From contig NZ_PYGC01000005.1 of NCBI RefSeq assembly GCF_003014495.1, positions 62,001 through 126,000 of the forward strand: a DNA stretch of 64,000 bases, read 5' to 3'. Positions 27,742 through 60,909 of the stretch are shown here, piece by piece. The translations under genes were made by a program, and so were the position numbers. Below the pieces are notes generated by a model. It was given only the letters and a program-made list of their open reading frames with translations. It had not been told where the DNA came from and did not search any database. This DNA is from Prolixibacter denitrificans (lineage in GTDB: Bacteria > Bacteroidota > Bacteroidia > Bacteroidales > Prolixibacteraceae). Within the stretch, counting starts at the first letter, position 1; each line of letters starts with the position of its first letter.

Positions 27742-28221
27742 ATGACTATTCTGATCATACTGCTCCTCATCTTTCTGGGAATCGTTTTGTTACTTCTCGA
27801 ATTTGCTGTTATTCCCGGAATCACCATCGCAGGAATTGGAGGTATGGTGCTATTCGGTTACAGTATCTACCTGGCATTTGATACCTATGGCGTAGCCGCC
27901 GGAATAGGGACACTGCTTTTCATTATCATCCTCGTTCCGATATTGATGTTCAGGATTCTGAAAGGAAGACTCGGGGACAAAATGTCCTTGAAATCGACCA
28001 TTATCGGCAAAACCAATTTGATTGAAGACACCCGTTTCCATGCAGGCGACAAAGGAGTCACGGTTACCCGGCTTGGACCTATCGGGAAGGTGGAATTTGA
28101 CGGACAGGTAATGGAGGGGAAATCAATCGGCCCCATGCTGGATGCCGGCACCGAAGTTGAAATTGTAAAAGTTTTAAAGAATCAAATAATCGTTAAACCT
28201 ATAAAAAAAGAAGAGTTATGA
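27742..28221 (+). CDS. NfeD-like membrane protein
   Basis: A 159-residue membrane protein of the short NfeD type, without the ClpP-like protease domain of the long form. Two to three hydrophobic segments lie in residues 2-75 and the C-terminal OB-fold domain follows ([20 protein letters not shown]). Short NfeD proteins are coded next to flotillins and are thought to work with them in membrane microdomains. Here the stop overlaps the floA start by four bases, which supports that pairing. Confidence 0.88.
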
Positions 28222-29213
28222 TTCCAGGTACCGTGGGAATAATTGTCGGGATAGTCGTCCTGCTGATTATCTTCCTTTATTTTATACCGATTGGACTTTG
28301 GTTTTCAGCCATCGTATCAGGGGTAAGAATTTCTTTGATGCAACTATTCCTGATGCGCTTCCGTAAAGTTCCTCCGGGTGTGATTACCCGGGCGATGATT
28401 GAAGCGCATAAAGCAGGTTTGGGAGGAATCAAACGTGATTTACTCGAAGCTCACTACCTTGCCGGCGGACATGTTGCCAGCGTTGTACATGCACTGGTTT
28501 CTGCTGAAAAAGCAAACATCGATCTACCGTTTAATATGGCCACTGCTATCGACCTGGCAGGTCGTGACGTATTCGAAGCTGTTCAAATGTCGGTTAACCC
28601 GAAAGTAATCGATACTCCGCCGGTAACAGCCGTATCAAAAGACGGTATTCAGCTGATTTGTAAAGCCCGTGTAACCGTACGTGCTGCCATCAAACAGTTG
28701 GTGGGTGGAGCAGGTGAAGAAACCGTTCTCGCACGTGTTGGCGAAGGTATTGTATCGTCTATCGGTTCATCCTTCTCACACAAAGAGGTACTGGAAAATC
28801 CGGACTCCATTTCACGTGTCGTGTTGGAAAAAGGACTTGACGCCGGTACTGCTTTTGAGATTCTGTCAATCGATATTGCTGATATTGACATCGGTAAAAA
28901 CATCGGTGCTGTTCTGCAGATGGACCAGGCTGAAGCTGATAAAAATATTGCACAGGCGAAAGCTGAGGAACGCCGGGCCATGGCCGTTGCACTCGAACAG
29001 GAGATGCGTGCCAAAGCTCAGGAAGCCCGCGCCAAGGTTATCGAAGCAGAGGTTCAGGTACCACTGGCTATTTCAGAAGCCTTCAAAAACGGAAACCTCG
29101 GCATTATGGACTACATGAAATATAAGAACATCAATGCCGACACCGCTATGCGCGATTCGATTGCCAGAGATGAAAACAGCAGTTCATCTTCCGACAACAG
29201 TCAATCAGAATAA
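28218..29213 (+). CDS. floA: Flotillin-like protein FloA
   Basis: A 331-residue membrane-bound scaffold protein. An N-terminal hydrophobic hairpin (about residues 5-45) is followed by the SPFH/PHB domain, including [16 protein letters not shown]-like sequence ([20 protein letters not shown]), and then a coiled-coil region rich in A, E and K (about 230-280). The C-terminal tail is serine-rich. Length and order match bacterial FloA (YqfA) proteins, which organise functional membrane microdomains. It forms a pair with the NfeD gene and ends in a strong terminator. Confidence 0.94.
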
Positions 29214-29266: not shown

Positions 29267-29358
29267 ATGCGCATCACTTTTTTCGCAAAACCTCAACCTC
29301 GCAATCGTTTGCGAAATATTTTTAACATTGCCTTAATGAAATTTAGTGTTTTAGAACA

Positions 29359-29366
29359 TACATTTG
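29359..29366 (+). promoter_or_regulatory. -7 promoter element of sRNA copy 1
   Basis: TACATTTG. This copy lacks the TTAACA box and the AAACATGTTT palindrome found upstream of copies 2, 4 and 5. Confidence 0.55.
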
Positions 29367-29371
29367 TCATG

Positions 29372-29468
29372 TGATTTTTATTCATAGGTTTGGATTTAGT
29401 TAGTTTTTATTGGTTTAGTTAGTTTTAGTTAGGTTGGAAAAGGATAGATGCCCGTCTATCCTTTTTTT
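29372..29468 (+). ncRNA. Predicted sRNA, array copy 1
   Basis: Predicted RNA of about 97 nt from just after the -7 box to the T run. It contains TTCATAGGTTTGG, then three TTAGTTAG-type modules, then the terminator stem GGATAGA (29442-29448) with TCTATCC (29455-29461), a T-G closing pair, loop GCCC and seven T. It is the longest copy and has the most diverged promoter. Function unknown; the U/G-rich single-stranded body suggests base pairing with A/C-rich leaders. Confidence 0.7.
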
Positions 29469-29603
29469 ATTGTCAAAATCATTGCAAACTAACCAATTAC
29501 AAAACCCTCCTTCTCTTTTTCCTATGTCGGAAAGGGTGAGAAAGAAAGCCGAAAAAGAAGCGTTCCAAAACGATCATCTTTTTCATATTCTTTTAAAAGT
29601 AGC

Positions 29604-29637
29604 TTAACACAGAAACATGTTTTTCAGCATATATTTG
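29604..29637 (+). promoter_or_regulatory. Promoter of sRNA copy 2
   Basis: TTAACA (29604-29609), 20-base spacer, TATATTTG (29630-29637). The spacer holds the palindrome AAACATGTTT (29613-29622), a possible operator. Confidence 0.65.
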
Positions 29638-29642
29638 TAATA

Positions 29643-29724
29643 GATTTTTATTCATAGGTTTGGATTTAGTTAGTTTTATTGGTTTAGTTAGGTTGGAAAG
29701 GATAGATGCCCGTCTATCCTTTTT
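29643..29724 (+). ncRNA. Predicted sRNA, array copy 2
   Basis: Predicted RNA of about 82 nt with TTCATAGGTTTGG, two TTAGTTAG modules and the terminator stem GGATAGA (29700-29706) and TCTATCC (29713-29719) followed by five T. The body is identical to copy 3 apart from a two-base length change in the 5' T run. Confidence 0.75.
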
Positions 29725-29857
29725 CTTTTGCCTAAATTTTTCTGCCGACACCCACCTGTGAAAAATGGAAGATTTAAAAACAACTTGAAATATTGAATTG
29801 GATGGAAGAGATAATTGGTATGACTTATTATCGATTTAATCTTCTTTTAAAAGTGAC

Positions 29858-29891
29858 TTAACACAAAAACATGCTTTTCAGCATATCTTTG
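29858..29891 (+). promoter_or_regulatory. Promoter of sRNA copy 3
   Basis: TTAACA (29858-29863), 20-base spacer, TATCTTTG (29884-29891). The palindrome is altered to AAACATGCTT in this copy. Confidence 0.65.
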
Positions 29892-29896
29892 TAGTA

Positions 29897-29979
29897 GATT
29901 TTTTATTCATAGGTTTGGATTTAGTTAGTTTTATTGGTTTAGTTAGGTTGGAAAGGATAGATGCCCGTCTATCCTTTTT
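29897..29979 (+). ncRNA. Predicted sRNA, array copy 3
   Basis: Predicted RNA of about 83 nt with the same layout as copy 2: TTCATAGGTTTGG, two TTAGTTAG modules, terminator stem GGATAGA (29955-29961) and TCTATCC (29968-29974), then T. Confidence 0.75.
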
Positions 29980-30128
29980 CTTTTGCCTAAACTTTCCGGC
30001 GAGCCCGACATTACAATTCAAACCTAAAAATGCTCTTCACATTTCATAGAAATGTTGTCCAACGCAAGCAAAGGAAGCTTCCCTGCAGGAAAAATATTTC
30101 GACAATGTCTTTAATTTTTAAGAGATGC

Positions 30129-30162
30129 TTAACACTGAAACATGTTTTTCAGCATATATTCG
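30129..30162 (+). promoter_or_regulatory. Promoter of sRNA copy 4, with imperfect -7 box
   Basis: TTAACA (30129-30134), 20-base spacer containing AAACATGTTT (30138-30147), then TATATTCG (30155-30162), which departs from TAnnTTTG at one base. Promoter strength may be reduced. Confidence 0.5.
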
Positions 30163-30167
30163 CACCG

Positions 30168-30260
30168 ATTTTTCAAGCATAGGTTTGGAATTAGTTAGTT
30201 TTATGGATTAGTTAGTTTAGTTAGGTTGGAAAAGGATAGATCTCATCTATCCTTTTTTTT
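30168..30260 (+). ncRNA. Predicted sRNA, array copy 4 (diverged)
   Basis: Predicted RNA of about 93 nt. The start differs (AAGCATAGGTTTGG), there are three TTAGTTAG modules, and the hairpin loop has changed while the stem is kept and extended: GGATAGAT, loop CTC, ATCTATCC. Change of the loop with retention of pairing (the T-G pair of other copies becomes T-A) is evidence that the hairpin is under selection. Confidence 0.68.
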
Positions 30261-30369
30261 CATTAACAACATCAAGCCACATTGTGTCGCAAAAACACGA
30301 GCTGGCAAAGTGATGATTCCTGAATTGTAAGATTACTTCAAATCTTTTTAAAATATTTTTAAAAGTGGC

Positions 30370-30403
30370 TTAACACAAAAACATGTTTTTCAGCATATCT
30401 TTG
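30370..30403 (+). promoter_or_regulatory. Promoter of sRNA copy 5
   Basis: TTAACA (30370-30375), 20-base spacer with AAACATGTTT (30379-30388), then TATCTTTG (30396-30403). Confidence 0.65.
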
Positions 30404-30408
30404 TAGTA

Positions 30409-30493
30409 GATTTTTTATTCATAGGTTTGGATTTAGTTAGTTTTATTGATTTAGTTAGGTTGGAAAGGATAGATGCCCGTCTATCCTTTTTTT
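30409..30493 (+). ncRNA. Predicted sRNA, array copy 5
   Basis: Predicted RNA of about 85 nt with TTCATAGGTTTGG, two modules (the second preceded by TTGAT rather than TTGGT), terminator stem GGATAGA (30467-30473) and TCTATCC (30480-30486), then seven T. It ends 40 bases before the stop of the convergent SDR gene. Confidence 0.75.
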
Positions 30494-30532
30494 ATGTCCA
30501 AAATTTTGGAACGACTCAGAATGAGCTCAACT

Positions 30533-31987
30533 CTATTCAGCTGATTCAGGGCGAAAACGAACAATTCGACGAATCATTCCCCGGAAAATAAAAAAGTGAA
30601 AAGGTTTACTCAAATACCAGTATAAACGTCCAAACAATCCTCTCGGACGAAAAGTGGCCACCTGATAAAGCCAGGTATGTTCGTTTCCGCGAACCATCTT
30701 AAATTCCAGCCAAGCCTCGCCGGGCAGTTTCATTTCAGCAAAGAGCAATAATCGTCCCTCCTCTTTATCGGCATACAAAACCCGCCAAAAATCCAGCGCA
30801 TCGCCGTTTTTTATCTCGTTAGGAAGTCTCCGCCCACGTCGTAAACCGACACCTCCAACCAGCTTATCGAGCAGTCCGCGTAATCTCCAAAGCCAGTTAG
30901 CGTAATACCAGCCCCGCTCGCCACCAATTGACCAAATATTTTCAATTGCTGCCTTTTCTGATACATCTACTTTTTTTCTTTTTACATCTTTAAAACAACC
31001 AAAACGAGGTACCTCAATGTGCCTTGACAGGTTCCCCTTCAGACGGCCGCTTGCCAAAGCGTCCTTCCAACTCGAAATCACCATGTTCTGCTCAATCCGG
31101 TCGTAAGCCAGGTTCACGGCTTCTCGAAAGGCGATAGGTTGATGCCCGAGCATTTCTGACAATCGATTATCCTTACACACAACTTCCACTTTCATGCTGT
31201 CGACCAGATTAACGGCCAATTTGTATGATGTAGCCGTGACAAAATAAAGCCAATAGGATGACAAACGGGGCGTCATAACCGGAACGGTAACAATGTATCG
31301 TTTCAGTCCTCGTGCCCTGGCAAACTGAATCATCATTTCCCGGTAGGTAAGAATTTCCGGACCGCCAATATCAAAACGTTGATCGAAAAAACGCTCATCC
31401 AGCAAAACATGCGTCAGGTAATAAATAACGTCGCGAATGGCAATCGGCTGAGATTTGGTCAGTACCCACCGCGGCGTTAACATGAAAGGAAGTTTCTCAA
31501 CCAAATCGCGCATAATCTCAAACGAGGCACTTCCCGACCCCACAATAATTCCTGCTTGTAAAATGGTTGTATGATAGTCGCCTCCCGCCAGAATATCTCC
31601 GACTTTTTGCCTCGATTGCAAATGTTTCGAAAGCTTTTTATCGTTACTGATACCGCCAAGATAAATGACCTGTCGAACACCGATTTCTTCTGCGAACTTC
31701 CGAAAATTCATTGCGGTTTGAGCTTCCAGCACATCAAACGAATCGATGGACGAAGACATGGAATGTATCAGGTAATAGGCCACATCAATCCCGGTAGGGA
31801 ATTGCTCTACTGATTGAATACACAGAAAATCAATTTCCAGAACAGTAAGTTGATCCGAAGGCAGATTATTTGTTGTGAAGCGTTGTTTATCGCGTACACA
31901 GCAAACCACTTCATGTCCCTGTTCCAACAAAACCGGGAGAAGTCTTTTCCCAATATACCCTGTAGCACCAGTAAGTAATATCTTCAC
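30533..31987 (-). CDS. NAD(P)-binding SDR-family protein with DUF2867 domain
   Basis: A 484-residue two-domain protein. The N-terminal atypical SDR (NmrA-like) Rossmann domain begins KILLTGATGYIGKRLLPVLL with the GxxGxxG nucleotide motif. The C-terminal third (about residues 330-480) matches DUF2867, with the conserved phrases GGERGWYYANWLW, DALDFWRV and LFAEMKLPGEAWLEF. Bacteroidota and others carry this fusion, usually annotated as an SDR oxidoreductase of unknown substrate. Upstream lies a 300-base gap to the divergent metallophosphoesterase gene in which I see no gene and no clear promoter. Confidence 0.88.
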   Translation of the reverse strand: MKILLTGATGYIGKRLLPVLLEQGHEVVCCVRDKQRFTTNNLPSDQLTVLEIDFLCIQSVEQFPTGIDVAYYLIHSMSSSIDSFDVLEAQTAMNFRKFAEEIGVRQVIYLGGISNDKKLSKHLQSRQKVGDILAGGDYHTTILQAGIIVGSGSASFEIMRDLVEKLPFMLTPRWVLTKSQPIAIRDVIYYLTHVLLDERFFDQRFDIGGPEILTYREMMIQFARARGLKRYIVTVPVMTPRLSSYWLYFVTATSYKLAVNLVDSMKVEVVCKDNRLSEMLGHQPIAFREAVNLAYDRIEQNMVISSWKDALASGRLKGNLSRHIEVPRFGCFKDVKRKKVDVSEKAAIENIWSIGGERGWYYANWLWRLRGLLDKLVGGVGLRRGRRLPNEIKNGDALDFWRVLYADKEEGRLLLFAEMKLPGEAWLEFKMVRGNEHTWLYQVATFRPRGLFGRLYWYLSKPFHFFIFRGMIRRIVRFRPESAE

Positions 31988-42174: not shown

Positions 42175-42567
42175 ATGAGTATCAATTACAAGGTGATACC
42201 GCGGAAAAATCCGGGTAATATTACCGCAGATCCCAAGTATTATGCGTCGATCAACAGCAAAGGACGCAGAAACAACCGCTACATTGCCAAGCAAATTGCC
42301 GACCGCTCTTCCCTCAACGAAATGGATGTATTATCGGTCATCGAAGGTTTCCTGCAAATTGTTCCCACAACCCTAACCGACGGCTATACTGTCGACCTGG
42401 GTGATTTTGGCACCATGAACCTGATAGCCAAAAGTCAGGCTGCCGAAACCGAAGAGGATTTTAACAGTAGTTTAATTGAAGGCGCTAAAGTAGCTTTCCG
42501 CCCCGGAAAGCTGTTCCGTAAAGAACTGAATGCCGCGGAATTCGTCAAACTCAACCACGCCGAATAG
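42175..42567 (+). CDS. HU-like DNA-binding protein (HU-HIG type)
   Basis: A 130-residue member of the HU/IHF fold, in the longer Bacteroidota group with extra N- and C-terminal residues. The central region RYIAKQIADRSSLNEMDVLSV and the following GFLQIVPTTLTDGYTVDLGD resemble the helix pair and arm of HU, and FRPGKLFRKELN is the typical end. These proteins bind DNA without strong sequence preference. The leader contains a match to the array sRNAs, and a hairpin and the seven-copy 22-bp repeat follow the gene. Confidence 0.85.
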   Translation: MSINYKVIPRKNPGNITADPKYYASINSKGRRNNRYIAKQIADRSSLNEMDVLSVIEGFLQIVPTTLTDGYTVDLGDFGTMNLIAKSQAAETEEDFNSSLIEGAKVAFRPGKLFRKELNAAEFVKLNHAE

Positions 42568-57933: not shown

Positions 57934-60909
57934 TTAGAAAGTTATATTTAAACCAAAGATGATATTCCGGGTCTGCGGATAGGTACCATAGTCGATACCC
58001 TTTGCCGTATTGGAAGTTCCGAAGGCATTGACTTCCGGATCAAATCCCGAGTAGTTGGTCAATGTCCATAGGTTTTCTCCGGTGGCATAAACCTTCACAT
58101 TTTGCATCTTCACTTTGTCCGTCCATGCTTTCGGGAGCTGGTAACTCAGCGTAACCGATTTCAAACGGAGATAAGAACCATCTTCAATGAATCGGCTGGA
58201 AATACGCGAATTATCATAGCTACCCCAGCTGGCTTTAGGAATATCTGTCTGATCGCCGGGTTGTCTCCAGCGGCGCAGCACAGCAGTTGATTGGTTTTGT
58301 GGTCCGGTCATACCTTCGATTTCCATACGGGAAGCATTCAACATATCGTTCCCTTGCGAACCTTGCAGGAATACGGACAAAGACAGTGATTTATAGCTGA
58401 CGTTGTTGGTCATACCGTAAATGAATTTAGGATTGGCATCACCAATCACCACACGGTCGTCAGCCGAAGGAGTAAACGTGCTGGAGCCATCTTTAGCGAT
58501 GTAATAGGCATTACCGGTCTGCGGGTCAACTCCACCCCACACATAGCCGAAGAGTGTTCCCAACGGCAGGCCTTCTTTCACCAGGCTGGCATCGCCGCGG
58601 TTCGTAATGCTTCCTGCATAGATCTCTTGTCCAACCAAATCAACAACTTTATTCCTGTTGAAGGAGATATTGAAATTCGTTGACCAGTTGATGGCTTTCT
58701 TCACGTTGACGGTGGTAAGATTGAATTCCAAACCTTTGTTCTGCAGTTTACCTACGTTCTGGATAGCAGTATCGTATCCGGTACTACGGGGCAACGGTGC
58801 ATTCAGTAGCAAATCGCTGGTGTTCCGGATATAAGCATCAGCTGAAAACTGGATACGTCCGCGGAAAACAGACAAATCAAGACCTACGTTGGTCTGTTCC
58901 GACTGCTCCCATTTCAGGTTCCGGTTTTCTACCGAAGAAGGATACGTTCCGGGTAAAGTAGAACCACCGATGGGATAGTTGGCGCCGCTGGCCACACGTC
59001 CGAACCAGGCGTAGTTCGTAATCTGATCGTTACCGACGATACCCCAACCGGCACGCAATTTCAGGTCGTCGAGGAAACTCAGGTCCTGCATGAACGGTTC
59101 CTGCGAAATACGCCATCCGATGGATGATGACGGGAAATATCCCCAACGGTTGTCCGGACCGAAAACACTGGAAGCATCGGCACGGAAGTTAACAGTCAGC
59201 AGGTACTTGTCTCTGAAACTGTAGTTGATACGTCCCAGGAAGGAAGTATTCCGCTTTTTAGCCTTATCGGAAGAAGCCGCAATCATTTCAGAGCCACCAT
59301 TGGTTGTCTGAACACCGTTGCCAGAGAAATTGCGGGTTTCGATATGGGCATTTTCCCAGTAAAACTCCTGGATAACACTACCTGCTAACGCCTCAATTTT
59401 GTGTGAACCTAATGTTTTATTGAAGGTCAGGGTGTTATCCCAAATGTAGTAGCTGGTTTTATTGGTATTGTTAATTCCCTGTCCGTTCAAAGCACGACCG
59501 TAGCTGGTCAGGAACGGATCGAGGAAATAATCATAAATATCATTGCGATCATCGATACCCAGATTTGATTTGAAACTAAAATCCTTCAGGAAATCGATTT
59601 TAGCATACACATTACCCAGTATCCGCTGGCTTTTGTATTTGCGGTTCGAACCATCGGTGCTGGCAATCGGGTTTTCCCAGTTTTGGAACGGGTTGCTGGT
59701 AAACGTCCCATCCGGGTTATAAATGCCAATAACGGGAGGAGTTGTCAATGCACCAAGCAGAACACCGCCTTTATCGACACCCTGGTTGTCATTCACATCC
59801 ACATCCGAATAAACCGAGTAAGCCATGCGGGTTCCAACGGTCAGCCACTTATTCACTTCCTGGTCGAGGTTGATTTTGAAGTTGTAGCGGTTCATCTGAG
59901 CACTACGTACTGCACCAACCTGTTCAACCCATCCACCTGACATGTAGTAGGACGTTTTATTGCTTTTCCCGGAAACGGACAACTGATAATTCTGTGAACG
60001 ACCGTTCTGGAAAATCTCTTTCTGCCAGTCGGTGTTGTGAGTATACAACGACCAGTCAGTGTTTTTTCCCATTTCGGTCATCAGGTCGCGGTATTGCTCA
60101 CCGTTCAGTACCGGCAAGGTTCTCCATACCTGGGAGAAACCATTGTACACATCCAGTTTCACGGTCGGCCGATCAGTAGTTCCTTTATAGGTAGTAATCA
60201 ACACAACACCGTTGGCTCCCTGTGCACCATAAATAGCTGCCGAAGAAGCATCTTTCAGGATAGAAATACTCTGAATGTCAGCAGGGTTGATGGAACGGGT
60301 ATCGGTTGTCGGCACACCGTCAACCACATAAAGTGGCTCACTTCCAGCGGTAATAGAGTTCGTTCCGCGAATGCGAATACTAAATCCCTGGGAAGGTTTT
60401 CCCGAACTGGAAAGAACCTGTACACCGGCCGCTTTACCTTCGATGAGGGCTCCCATTTGAGTATTGGGACGCGAATCCATCTGTTTGGAATCGACCATGG
60501 CAACCGAACCGGTTACATCTTTTTTCTGCTGAGTACCATAACCAACCACCACCACTTCGTCGAGGCCCGTTACATTCTCTTCCATGGTCACATCAATGTT
60601 TGCGCGGTTGCCAATGCTCACGTCTTTGGTCTTCATACCAATAAAACTGAAAGTGAGTACTCCATCAGCAGGAATGTCTCCCGAAAGGGAATATTTTCCA
60701 TCAAAATTGGTGATAGTACCGGTTGATGTTCCTTTCACCATAACGGTCACCGAGGGAATAGGCTCCCCTGATTTGTCCGTCACAGTTCCTGTAATCGTTC
60801 GTTGCTGTGCATACGAACTTACCGACAGGAGCAATCCTGCCAGAAGGCATAAAACAGATTTATGCCAGAGACGAATTTTCAAGAACGTCATTGTTTTTTC
60901 TTTTTTCAT
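57934..60909 (-). CDS. susC: SusC/RagA-family TonB-linked outer membrane transporter
   Basis: A 991-residue TonB-dependent transporter. A signal peptide (about residues 1-34) is followed by a carboxypeptidase-regulatory-like domain (about 35-110, TVTDKSGEPIPSVTVMVKG), a plug domain (VVVVGYGTQQKKDVTGSVA and VRIRGTNSI-like RIRGTNSITAG), and a long barrel ending in IIFGLNITF. There is no anti-sigma-interacting STN domain, so it is not controlled by an ECF sigma pair. It is the first gene of the polysaccharide operon. The 563-base upstream region separates it from its probable regulator. Confidence 0.95.
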   Translation of the reverse strand: MKKEKTMTFLKIRLWHKSVLCLLAGLLLSVSSYAQQRTITGTVTDKSGEPIPSVTVMVKGTSTGTITNFDGKYSLSGDIPADGVLTFSFIGMKTKDVSIGNRANIDVTMEENVTGLDEVVVVGYGTQQKKDVTGSVAMVDSKQMDSRPNTQMGALIEGKAAGVQVLSSSGKPSQGFSIRIRGTNSITAGSEPLYVVDGVPTTDTRSINPADIQSISILKDASSAAIYGAQGANGVVLITTYKGTTDRPTVKLDVYNGFSQVWRTLPVLNGEQYRDLMTEMGKNTDWSLYTHNTDWQKEIFQNGRSQNYQLSVSGKSNKTSYYMSGGWVEQVGAVRSAQMNRYNFKINLDQEVNKWLTVGTRMAYSVYSDVDVNDNQGVDKGGVLLGALTTPPVIGIYNPDGTFTSNPFQNWENPIASTDGSNRKYKSQRILGNVYAKIDFLKDFSFKSNLGIDDRNDIYDYFLDPFLTSYGRALNGQGINNTNKTSYYIWDNTLTFNKTLGSHKIEALAGSVIQEFYWENAHIETRNFSGNGVQTTNGGSEMIAASSDKAKKRNTSFLGRINYSFRDKYLLTVNFRADASSVFGPDNRWGYFPSSSIGWRISQEPFMQDLSFLDDLKLRAGWGIVGNDQITNYAWFGRVASGANYPIGGSTLPGTYPSSVENRNLKWEQSEQTNVGLDLSVFRGRIQFSADAYIRNTSDLLLNAPLPRSTGYDTAIQNVGKLQNKGLEFNLTTVNVKKAINWSTNFNISFNRNKVVDLVGQEIYAGSITNRGDASLVKEGLPLGTLFGYVWGGVDPQTGNAYYIAKDGSSTFTPSADDRVVIGDANPKFIYGMTNNVSYKSLSLSVFLQGSQGNDMLNASRMEIEGMTGPQNQSTAVLRRWRQPGDQTDIPKASWGSYDNSRISSRFIEDGSYLRLKSVTLSYQLPKAWTDKVKMQNVKVYATGENLWTLTNYSGFDPEVNAFGTSNTAKGIDYGTYPQTRNIIFGLNITF

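Follow-up and report, generated by a model that had tools for sequence, protein, structure and literature searches.

Prolixibacter denitrificans carries a family of predicted small RNAs (sRNAs), five of which are encoded in tandem on the + strand (29333-30491) of the window, the 64,000-nt stretch of DNA analyzed here (contig 5 positions 62001-126000 of the 4.73 Mb genome). With a probability of roughly 0.6, these redundant sRNAs block translation initiation on SusC mRNAs through seed pairing over the AUG. Each block would give rise to one trans-acting sRNA of about 83-96 nt. A seed at its 5' end (in copy 3, GAUUUUUUAUUCAUAGGUUUGGAU) would be followed by a body rich in U, A and G that carries UUAGUUAG modules, and the RNA would end in a Rho-independent terminator. 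This seed is antisense to the start region of many genes for SusC-type outer-membrane transporters in the genome (e.g., CAAAUCUAUGAAAAAA). A duplex spanning the AUG and the final bases of the 5' UTR would then block translation initiation on SusC operons, as FopS does in Bacteroides. Tandem copies with their own promoters would contribute dose and perhaps separate control.

The array in the window and its copies in the genome

All five blocks of the original prediction are present (Table 1), and its account of their anatomy is borne out. The -7 box conforms to TAnnTTTG in four copies and deviates in copy 4, and a -33 hexamer lies exactly 20 nt upstream of the box in all five (TTAACA in copies 2-5, TTAATG in copy 1). 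Each block closes with a strong terminator hairpin in the predicted folds, followed by a T run, which in copy 1 extends a few bases past 29466. The predicted 5' ends lie 4-5 nt past the -7 box, and the predicted lengths are 83-96 nt. Copy 4 is the most divergent of the five. The window has five + strand occurrences of CATAGGTTTGG, each inside a block, and a single one on the - strand; of the 13 + strand occurrences of TTAGTTAG, 12 are inside the blocks. Predicted folds of copies 1-3 have the two outer modules pairing weakly with each other while the first part of the seed stays free, indicating that the sRNA body is not wholly unstructured. The absence of an open frame also stands, as no ORF on either strand is conserved over the five copies: on the sense strand, ORFs either are short or overrun the terminator, and antisense-strand peptides are mostly unlike between copies, with copies 3 and 5 sharing the same 10 residues.

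Table 1. Coordinates of the predicted sRNA genes, their promoters and related genes in the window (E-values of sRNA genes are from the covariance model)
Feature	Coordinates	Strand	Details
floA, upstream neighbour	28218..29213	+	Pfam PF12127, E 9e-157
Promoter, copy 1	29333..29366	+	TTAATG, 20 nt, TACATTTG
Predicted sRNA gene, copy 1	29371..29466	+	three TTAGTTAG modules; terminator stem about 29438-29464; E 2.6e-12 (C5:91372-91466)
Promoter, copy 2	29604..29637	+	TTAACA, 20 nt, TATATTTG
Predicted sRNA gene, copy 2	29642..29724	+	two modules; terminator stem 29697-29722; E 1.1e-14
Promoter, copy 3	29858..29891	+	TTAACA, 20 nt, TATCTTTG
Predicted sRNA gene, copy 3	29897..29979	+	two modules; terminator stem 29952-29977; E 1.1e-14
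Promoter, copy 4	30129..30162	+	TTAACA, 20 nt, TATATTCG
Predicted sRNA gene, copy 4	30168..30257	+	three modules; terminator stem about 30230-30256; E 2.4e-11
Promoter, copy 5	30370..30403	+	TTAACA, 20 nt, TATCTTTG
Predicted sRNA gene, copy 5	30409..30491	+	two modules; terminator stem 30464-30489; E 2.3e-14
NAD-binding/DUF2867 gene, convergent, other flank of array	30533-31987	-	Pfam
SusC-family gene, predicted target	57934..60909	-	start region AATCCTATGAAAAAAG pairs with seed (predicted)

Conservation follows the transcribed unit. Mean ungapped identity between the window copies is 86% in the core and 27-29% at 80-180 nt upstream of it, in keeping with the claim that the inter-block sequence is unrelated; the promoters too are conserved among copies 2-5. 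In comparisons with three congeners, identity is 85-100% for the transcribed parts, 80-94% for the promoters and 50-86% for the spacers. The 5' core TTCATAnGTTTnG is near-constant in most rows of the covariance alignment. Its terminator helix is paired in 98.3% of cells (143 matches from 59 loci, 80 distinct). Both sides of the helix have changed in 157 cells, versus 34.7 in shuffles, with none of 500 shuffles reaching as many, in an alignment fitted to the model, which biases towards signal; sliding the helix abolishes the covariation.

The same matches support the promoter. After removal of repeats and of matches less than 75 nt from a locus end, the 143 matches were reduced to 110 distinct copies, 88 of which have TAnnTTTG, versus 143 of 2200 sites drawn at random from the same loci. 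The distance to CATA was measured in 91 copies, and in 87 of these the -7 box ends 15-17 nt upstream of it. A partly palindromic element, AAACATGTTTTTCAGCA (AAACATGCTTTTCAGCA in copy 3), lies between -33 and -7 in copies 2-5 (29610-29629 and the equivalent spacers of copies 3-5) and is lacking in copy 1. It is possible that this element is an operator.

The window array is part of a larger set. The genome contains 18 copies in five places, a total that leaves out a few weaker candidates: five in the window contig, two on contig 3, five each on contigs 2 and 8, and a single copy on contig 6. The tandem pair on contig 3 was found by a BLAST-type search as a sixth, weaker place. A covariance model (R1) built from this pair and the five window copies found further copies in the genome, including three of the five on contig 8. 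A second model, R2, built from the FopS-free alignment A3, recovered all five, the fifth at E 0.01; A3 itself holds four of them. The contig 2 array is located between an epimerase gene and an S-adenosylmethionine synthetase gene, and the contig 8 array between genes for a creatininase and an AhpC-type peroxiredoxin. Two similar tandem tRNA genes adjoin the contig 3 pair (L006 1819-2030). A possible extra copy on contig 9 (G000:C9:131430-131516, L089) has two CATA cores ahead of one terminator; it apparently lies just past the end of a reading frame and resembles the 3' UTR-derived FopS-14. The weakest model matches in the genome, which include antisense of susC starts (C8:19903, against L139), were rejected as copies.

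Sequence comparison gives good support to the original prediction of an sRNA family with redundant copies, each having its own promoter and terminator. LhrC1-5 of Listeria and Qrr of Vibrio are likewise encoded by several redundant sRNA genes, with hosts, seeds and targets other than those of the window array. Neither Rfam model matched the window at gathering score or was among the array's seven matches at E<=10. The Rfam search as a whole, run on the window at gathering score and on the array at E<=10, returned only chance-like matches.

Complementarity of the seed to SusC start regions

In antisense, the seed core corresponds to a translation start (CCTATGAA). Its other strand reads CTAACTAAA..CAAACCTATGAA, a plausible Bacteroidota gene start, and in the contig 2 and contig 8 arrays the antisense of the core runs on as ATGAAAAAA, Met-Lys-Lys. 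Several of the 30 SusC-family starts analyzed in the genome read ..CAAATCTATGAAAAAA (e.g., L117, L126, L131, L139). CTATG is found at the start of 17 of 30 SusC genes and 21 of 352 others (Fisher p 1e-11). Among the SusC starts (L110-L139), T occupies -1 in 26/30 and C occupies -2 in 18/30, a signature lacking in the other genes.

Predicted duplexes set the SusC class apart. Ten sRNA strings of the 18 genome copies were tested, and for all ten the predicted binding to the 30 SusC starts was stronger than that to 352 other genes (p 4e-3 to 2e-8). The SusC starts also surpassed 87 Met-Lys genes for the same strings (p 3e-2 to 9e-6). Shuffled sRNAs gave a difference between SusC and other genes of less than 0.8 kcal/mol (20 shuffles each, scored on every eighth background gene, the true strings on all). 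The preference resides in the first 24 nt, with an AUC of 0.78 for the window, 0.83 for the contig 2 type, 0.89 for a contig 8 type (C8b) and 0.78 for the contig 3 type. Shuffled seeds equaled the true seed in 1/60 cases for the window and 0/60 for each of the others, the shuffles being scored on every third background gene and the true seeds on all. The terminator part showed no SusC preference in this genome (AUC 0.35). The published FopS seed gave an AUC of 0.77 on the same genes. These tests took the first ATG of each ORF as the gene start, which is thus wrong for some genes, dropped ORFs under 100 aa or near stretch ends, and used energies that ignore mRNA structure; the SusC genes used were 30 of the 31 over the cut-off here, 30 of 47 in G031 and 30 of 31 in G375.

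Within the window, the SusC-family gene is predicted to form duplexes of -27.3 kcal/mol with copy 3 and -28.1 kcal/mol with a contig 2 sRNA. SusC genes account for only eight of the top 30 predicted duplexes in the genome, versus 2.4 expected by chance. Several of the strongest duplexes are formed with non-SusC genes, for example with leaders AAACTAACTAACCAACTGATGAAAAAAG and CGACTAACTAACAATTAACCTGATG, and the window gene starting at 42175 also ranks high. These sRNAs could, then, act by base pairing mainly on targets other than SusC, either a few mRNAs or a large number whose leaders are C/A-rich just before the AUG (ACTAACTAA). In Chryseobacterium the antisense of the whole core looks to be a genuine start region, and the module part separates SusC genes better than the seed does in a second genus, both of which are consistent with such targets. 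However, the SusC class stands out in the P. denitrificans genome against the 352 genes, the Met-Lys genes and the shuffled seeds, which makes a principal role at other mRNAs rather unlikely. Near-complete complements of the sRNA were not enriched in the genome (six non-sRNA sites versus ten for a control pattern); one long-complement site, C3:253034, is a plausible leader.

In the second genus (G031, genus g10) the seed alone separated SusC genes only weakly, with an AUC of 0.635 and 5/60 shuffles as good; the AUC was 0.75 (p 5e-6, a value obtained outside the shuffle control) for the whole region upstream of the terminator. SusC starts in G031 favor TTATG (12/30 versus 33/277 others), which fits the CATAA seed of that genome. 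G375, from another family, has the seed CATAGATTTAG and SusC starts with TTATG in 12/30 and CTATG in 0/30. A rule in which a seed base tracks the SusC base at -2 fits P. denitrificans (C) and G031 (T) and fails in G375 (G in the sRNA, T in SusC); given this mismatch, base-for-base matching of seed and SusC is not general. A T-rich SusC signature before the ATG is seen in G031 and is less strong in G375.

The modules and RRM-domain proteins

Modules are present in nearly all copies and vary in number. The original prediction took this variation to suggest several pairing sites per RNA, a view that finds no support in P. denitrificans. The first 24 nt carry the SusC preference in P. denitrificans, where the module part gives an AUC of 0.48 for the window, 0.55 for contig 3 and 0.57 for contig 2, with a slight SusC signal in C8b (AUC 0.60, p 0.04). 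The modules of G031 do discriminate SusC genes (AUC 0.70, 0/60 shuffles as good), better than the seed there. The modules may provide extra pairing with C/A-rich leaders, or may bind an RRM protein.

The second possibility can be taken further. CsrB and RsmY titrate CsrA, and they resemble the window sRNAs in having short modules repeated within one RNA; the module sequence differs. The UUAGUUAG modules might similarly dock RRM-domain proteins, the arrays serving as a sponge that titrates them, with base pairing secondary. Modules of variable number in nearly all copies, which contribute little if anything to SusC pairing in P. denitrificans, are consistent with such a role. The genome encodes three RRM proteins, one of them 3.4 kb from the contig 2 array. 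This protein (136 aa, G000:C2:311092-311502, L240 1593-2003) is encoded upstream of that array and has a Gly/Arg-rich tail; between its gene and the array lie the genes for a 654-aa protein that resembles DNA primase and for the epimerase. An RRM protein, RbpB, binds FopS, but in the portion of the FopS report available here it relieves repression by the sRNA (PMC11697453). Moreover, the seed, besides the modules, is nearly invariant and is antisense to start codons. A sponge as the main function is therefore unlikely. An RRM protein may help or antagonize sRNAs that would repress SusC translation.

Spread, relation to FopS and meaning

The family extends throughout the Prolixibacteraceae. Searched across genomes, as the original prediction had proposed, the covariance model found a match in 139 of 140 genomes of this family (E<=0.01), with up to 16 matches per genome, or up to 18 with R2 at E<=0.05. 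At least 25 of these genomes, counted by eye, have two or more copies within 1 kb. A relative of the window array is also present in P. bellariivorans. Given this spread and the covariance-model E-values of the five window copies (1e-14 to 2e-11 in the whole genome, by a model that the same copies helped build), the window array is not a product of chance.

G031 has five copies behind floA and nfeD, as in the window, and the floA-linked array has therefore probably kept its place between the two genera. No FloA-like ORF was found in the 9 kb listed near the array of G013 (genus g11), and this array rules out a general synteny behind floA. The remaining alternative, that the blocks are not RNA genes and represent a DNA repeat, a mobile element or an attenuator/terminator array, would suit near-identical tandem copies with terminator-like ends, but is highly improbable given the promoter at a fixed spacing, the covarying hairpin, the array behind floA in two genera, the lack of a transposase among ten neighbouring proteins in a Pfam search, and the lack of any match of copy 3 in phage or plasmid collections (E<=0.01), a mobile-element repeat being one of the ways in which the original prediction could have failed.

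Across the order, R2 matched 117 of 393 genomes at E<=0.05, including five from the Prolixibacteraceae; outside the family, 39 genomes matched at E<=1e-3 (by eye). Twenty-five order-level matches were read by eye, and five (L177, L180, L181, L189, L190) were rejected as relatives: they are U/A/G-rich RNAs lacking the TTCATA seed and are probably unrelated. The count of 117 is for this reason an upper figure. Four of the five rejected RNAs (L177, L181, L189, L190) are separate, similar RNAs (ATAGGTTTAGTGGTTAGTGTTTTTAGTTAGTAATTAGGG and a GC-rich terminator) from another family (f15). An exact-pattern match in Chryseobacterium was also rejected as an sRNA, since it resembles the start of a gene, where the whole core is read in antisense.

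The closest known sRNA is FopS, published in 2025 from Bacteroidaceae of the same order (Rfam RF04319) and represented in B. thetaiotaomicron by 14 paralogues, each about 65-70 nt long, that have a single-stranded seed at the 5' end, a terminator and a canonical promoter (PMC11697453). In the available text, FopS represses SusC translation at the start codon, and its R1' seed at the 5' end reads GTGTTTTTCATAGTATTAGATTTAAGGTTAACAAA as a 70% consensus (PMC11697453). The window family resembles FopS in a seed core, TTnTTCATAGnnTTnGATTTA, near the 5' start of the RNA; in a single-stranded 5' part followed by a terminator, as predicted and with the weak inter-module stem in copies 1-3; in a TAnnTTTG (sigma-ABfr type) promoter about 5 nt ahead of the 5' end, with TATATTCG in one window copy; in many redundant paralogues per genome (18 here); and in predicted pairing with SusC start regions. 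Unlike FopS, the window sRNAs are predicted to be 83-96 nt long, carry UUAGUUAG modules after the seed where FopS has AAGGUUAACAAA, and are encoded in tandem arrays whose copies in the window RF04319 does not recognize.

RF04319 had no match to the window array at E<=10 or to the contig 2 and contig 3 arrays at E<=1. Its best two matches in the genome are copies of the contig 8 array (37.3 and 31.6 bits, E 0.0012 and 0.015), and no copy reached the gathering score of 56 bits. Seven loci were compared with this model; five matched at 30-37 bits (E 0.03-0.47) and two, both from P. denitrificans, did not. RF04319 matched 8 of 14 control genomes at E<=10, exceeding the cut-off only in Bacteroides ihuae. 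Five true FopS genes from plasmid and phage records scored 75-79 bits with RF04319 and 12-20 bits with R2, for which they were the best match of the record in four cases and the second in one. These genes (L235-L239) are in plasmid-collection records of Bacteroides, Phocaeicola, Parabacteroides and Prevotella and in Bacteroides phage BX-TP2. Intermediates from other families (e.g., L167, L170) read AGATTTTTTTTCATAGATTTAGATTTGGTTAACAAAG, between the window family and FopS. Judged by such sequence features, the two likely share descent. The array is not filed as FopS, because its copies fall short of the RF04319 gathering score and differ in predicted length; by these measures it is FopS-like, not FopS.

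GibS of B. thetaiotaomicron has an R1 seed region in common with FopS and is a further point of comparison. It has a largely unstructured 5' part that pairs around start codons, according to the portions of two reports available here (PMC7366714, PMC11697453). As compared by description, GibS differs from the window array in being a single gene with a second seed (R2), another promoter type and other targets.

The original prediction knew of no such family in this clade. This holds for Prolixibacter and the Marinilabiliales: among the matches listed in a literature search on these names and on multicopy or tandem Bacteroidota sRNAs, in which subscription journals are thinly covered, none such was found outside Bacteroides. 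It does not hold for the order, to which FopS belongs. The kind of regulator is thus already known. What is new is the arrangement in tandem arrays, the presence of modules in the RNAs, the breadth of the family in the Prolixibacteraceae and the independent test of SusC complementarity.

It is possible, and we propose it tentatively, that FopS belongs to a wider class of anti-start-codon sRNAs, found throughout the order, in which the seed matches the start-region signature of SusC genes. In the Prolixibacteraceae this class would have grown into five-gene tandem arrays and about 18 genes per genome, and would have acquired repeated UUAGUUAG modules that are maybe a docking ladder for RRM proteins. 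Through its fit to the SusC start signature, the class would restrain glycan uptake in general at the level of translation.

The FopS work, in the text available, deals with the control of SusC translation by sRNAs in a single gut species (PMC11697453). An expanded tandem version, near-universal in another family and with likely relatives in further families, is an independent test system. The window family would also add to Rfam a group of RNAs not captured by the FopS model. With it, one could test whether sRNAs generally restrain SusC/PUL translation, why copies persist in such number, and how an sRNA family tracks the start-region signature of its targets.
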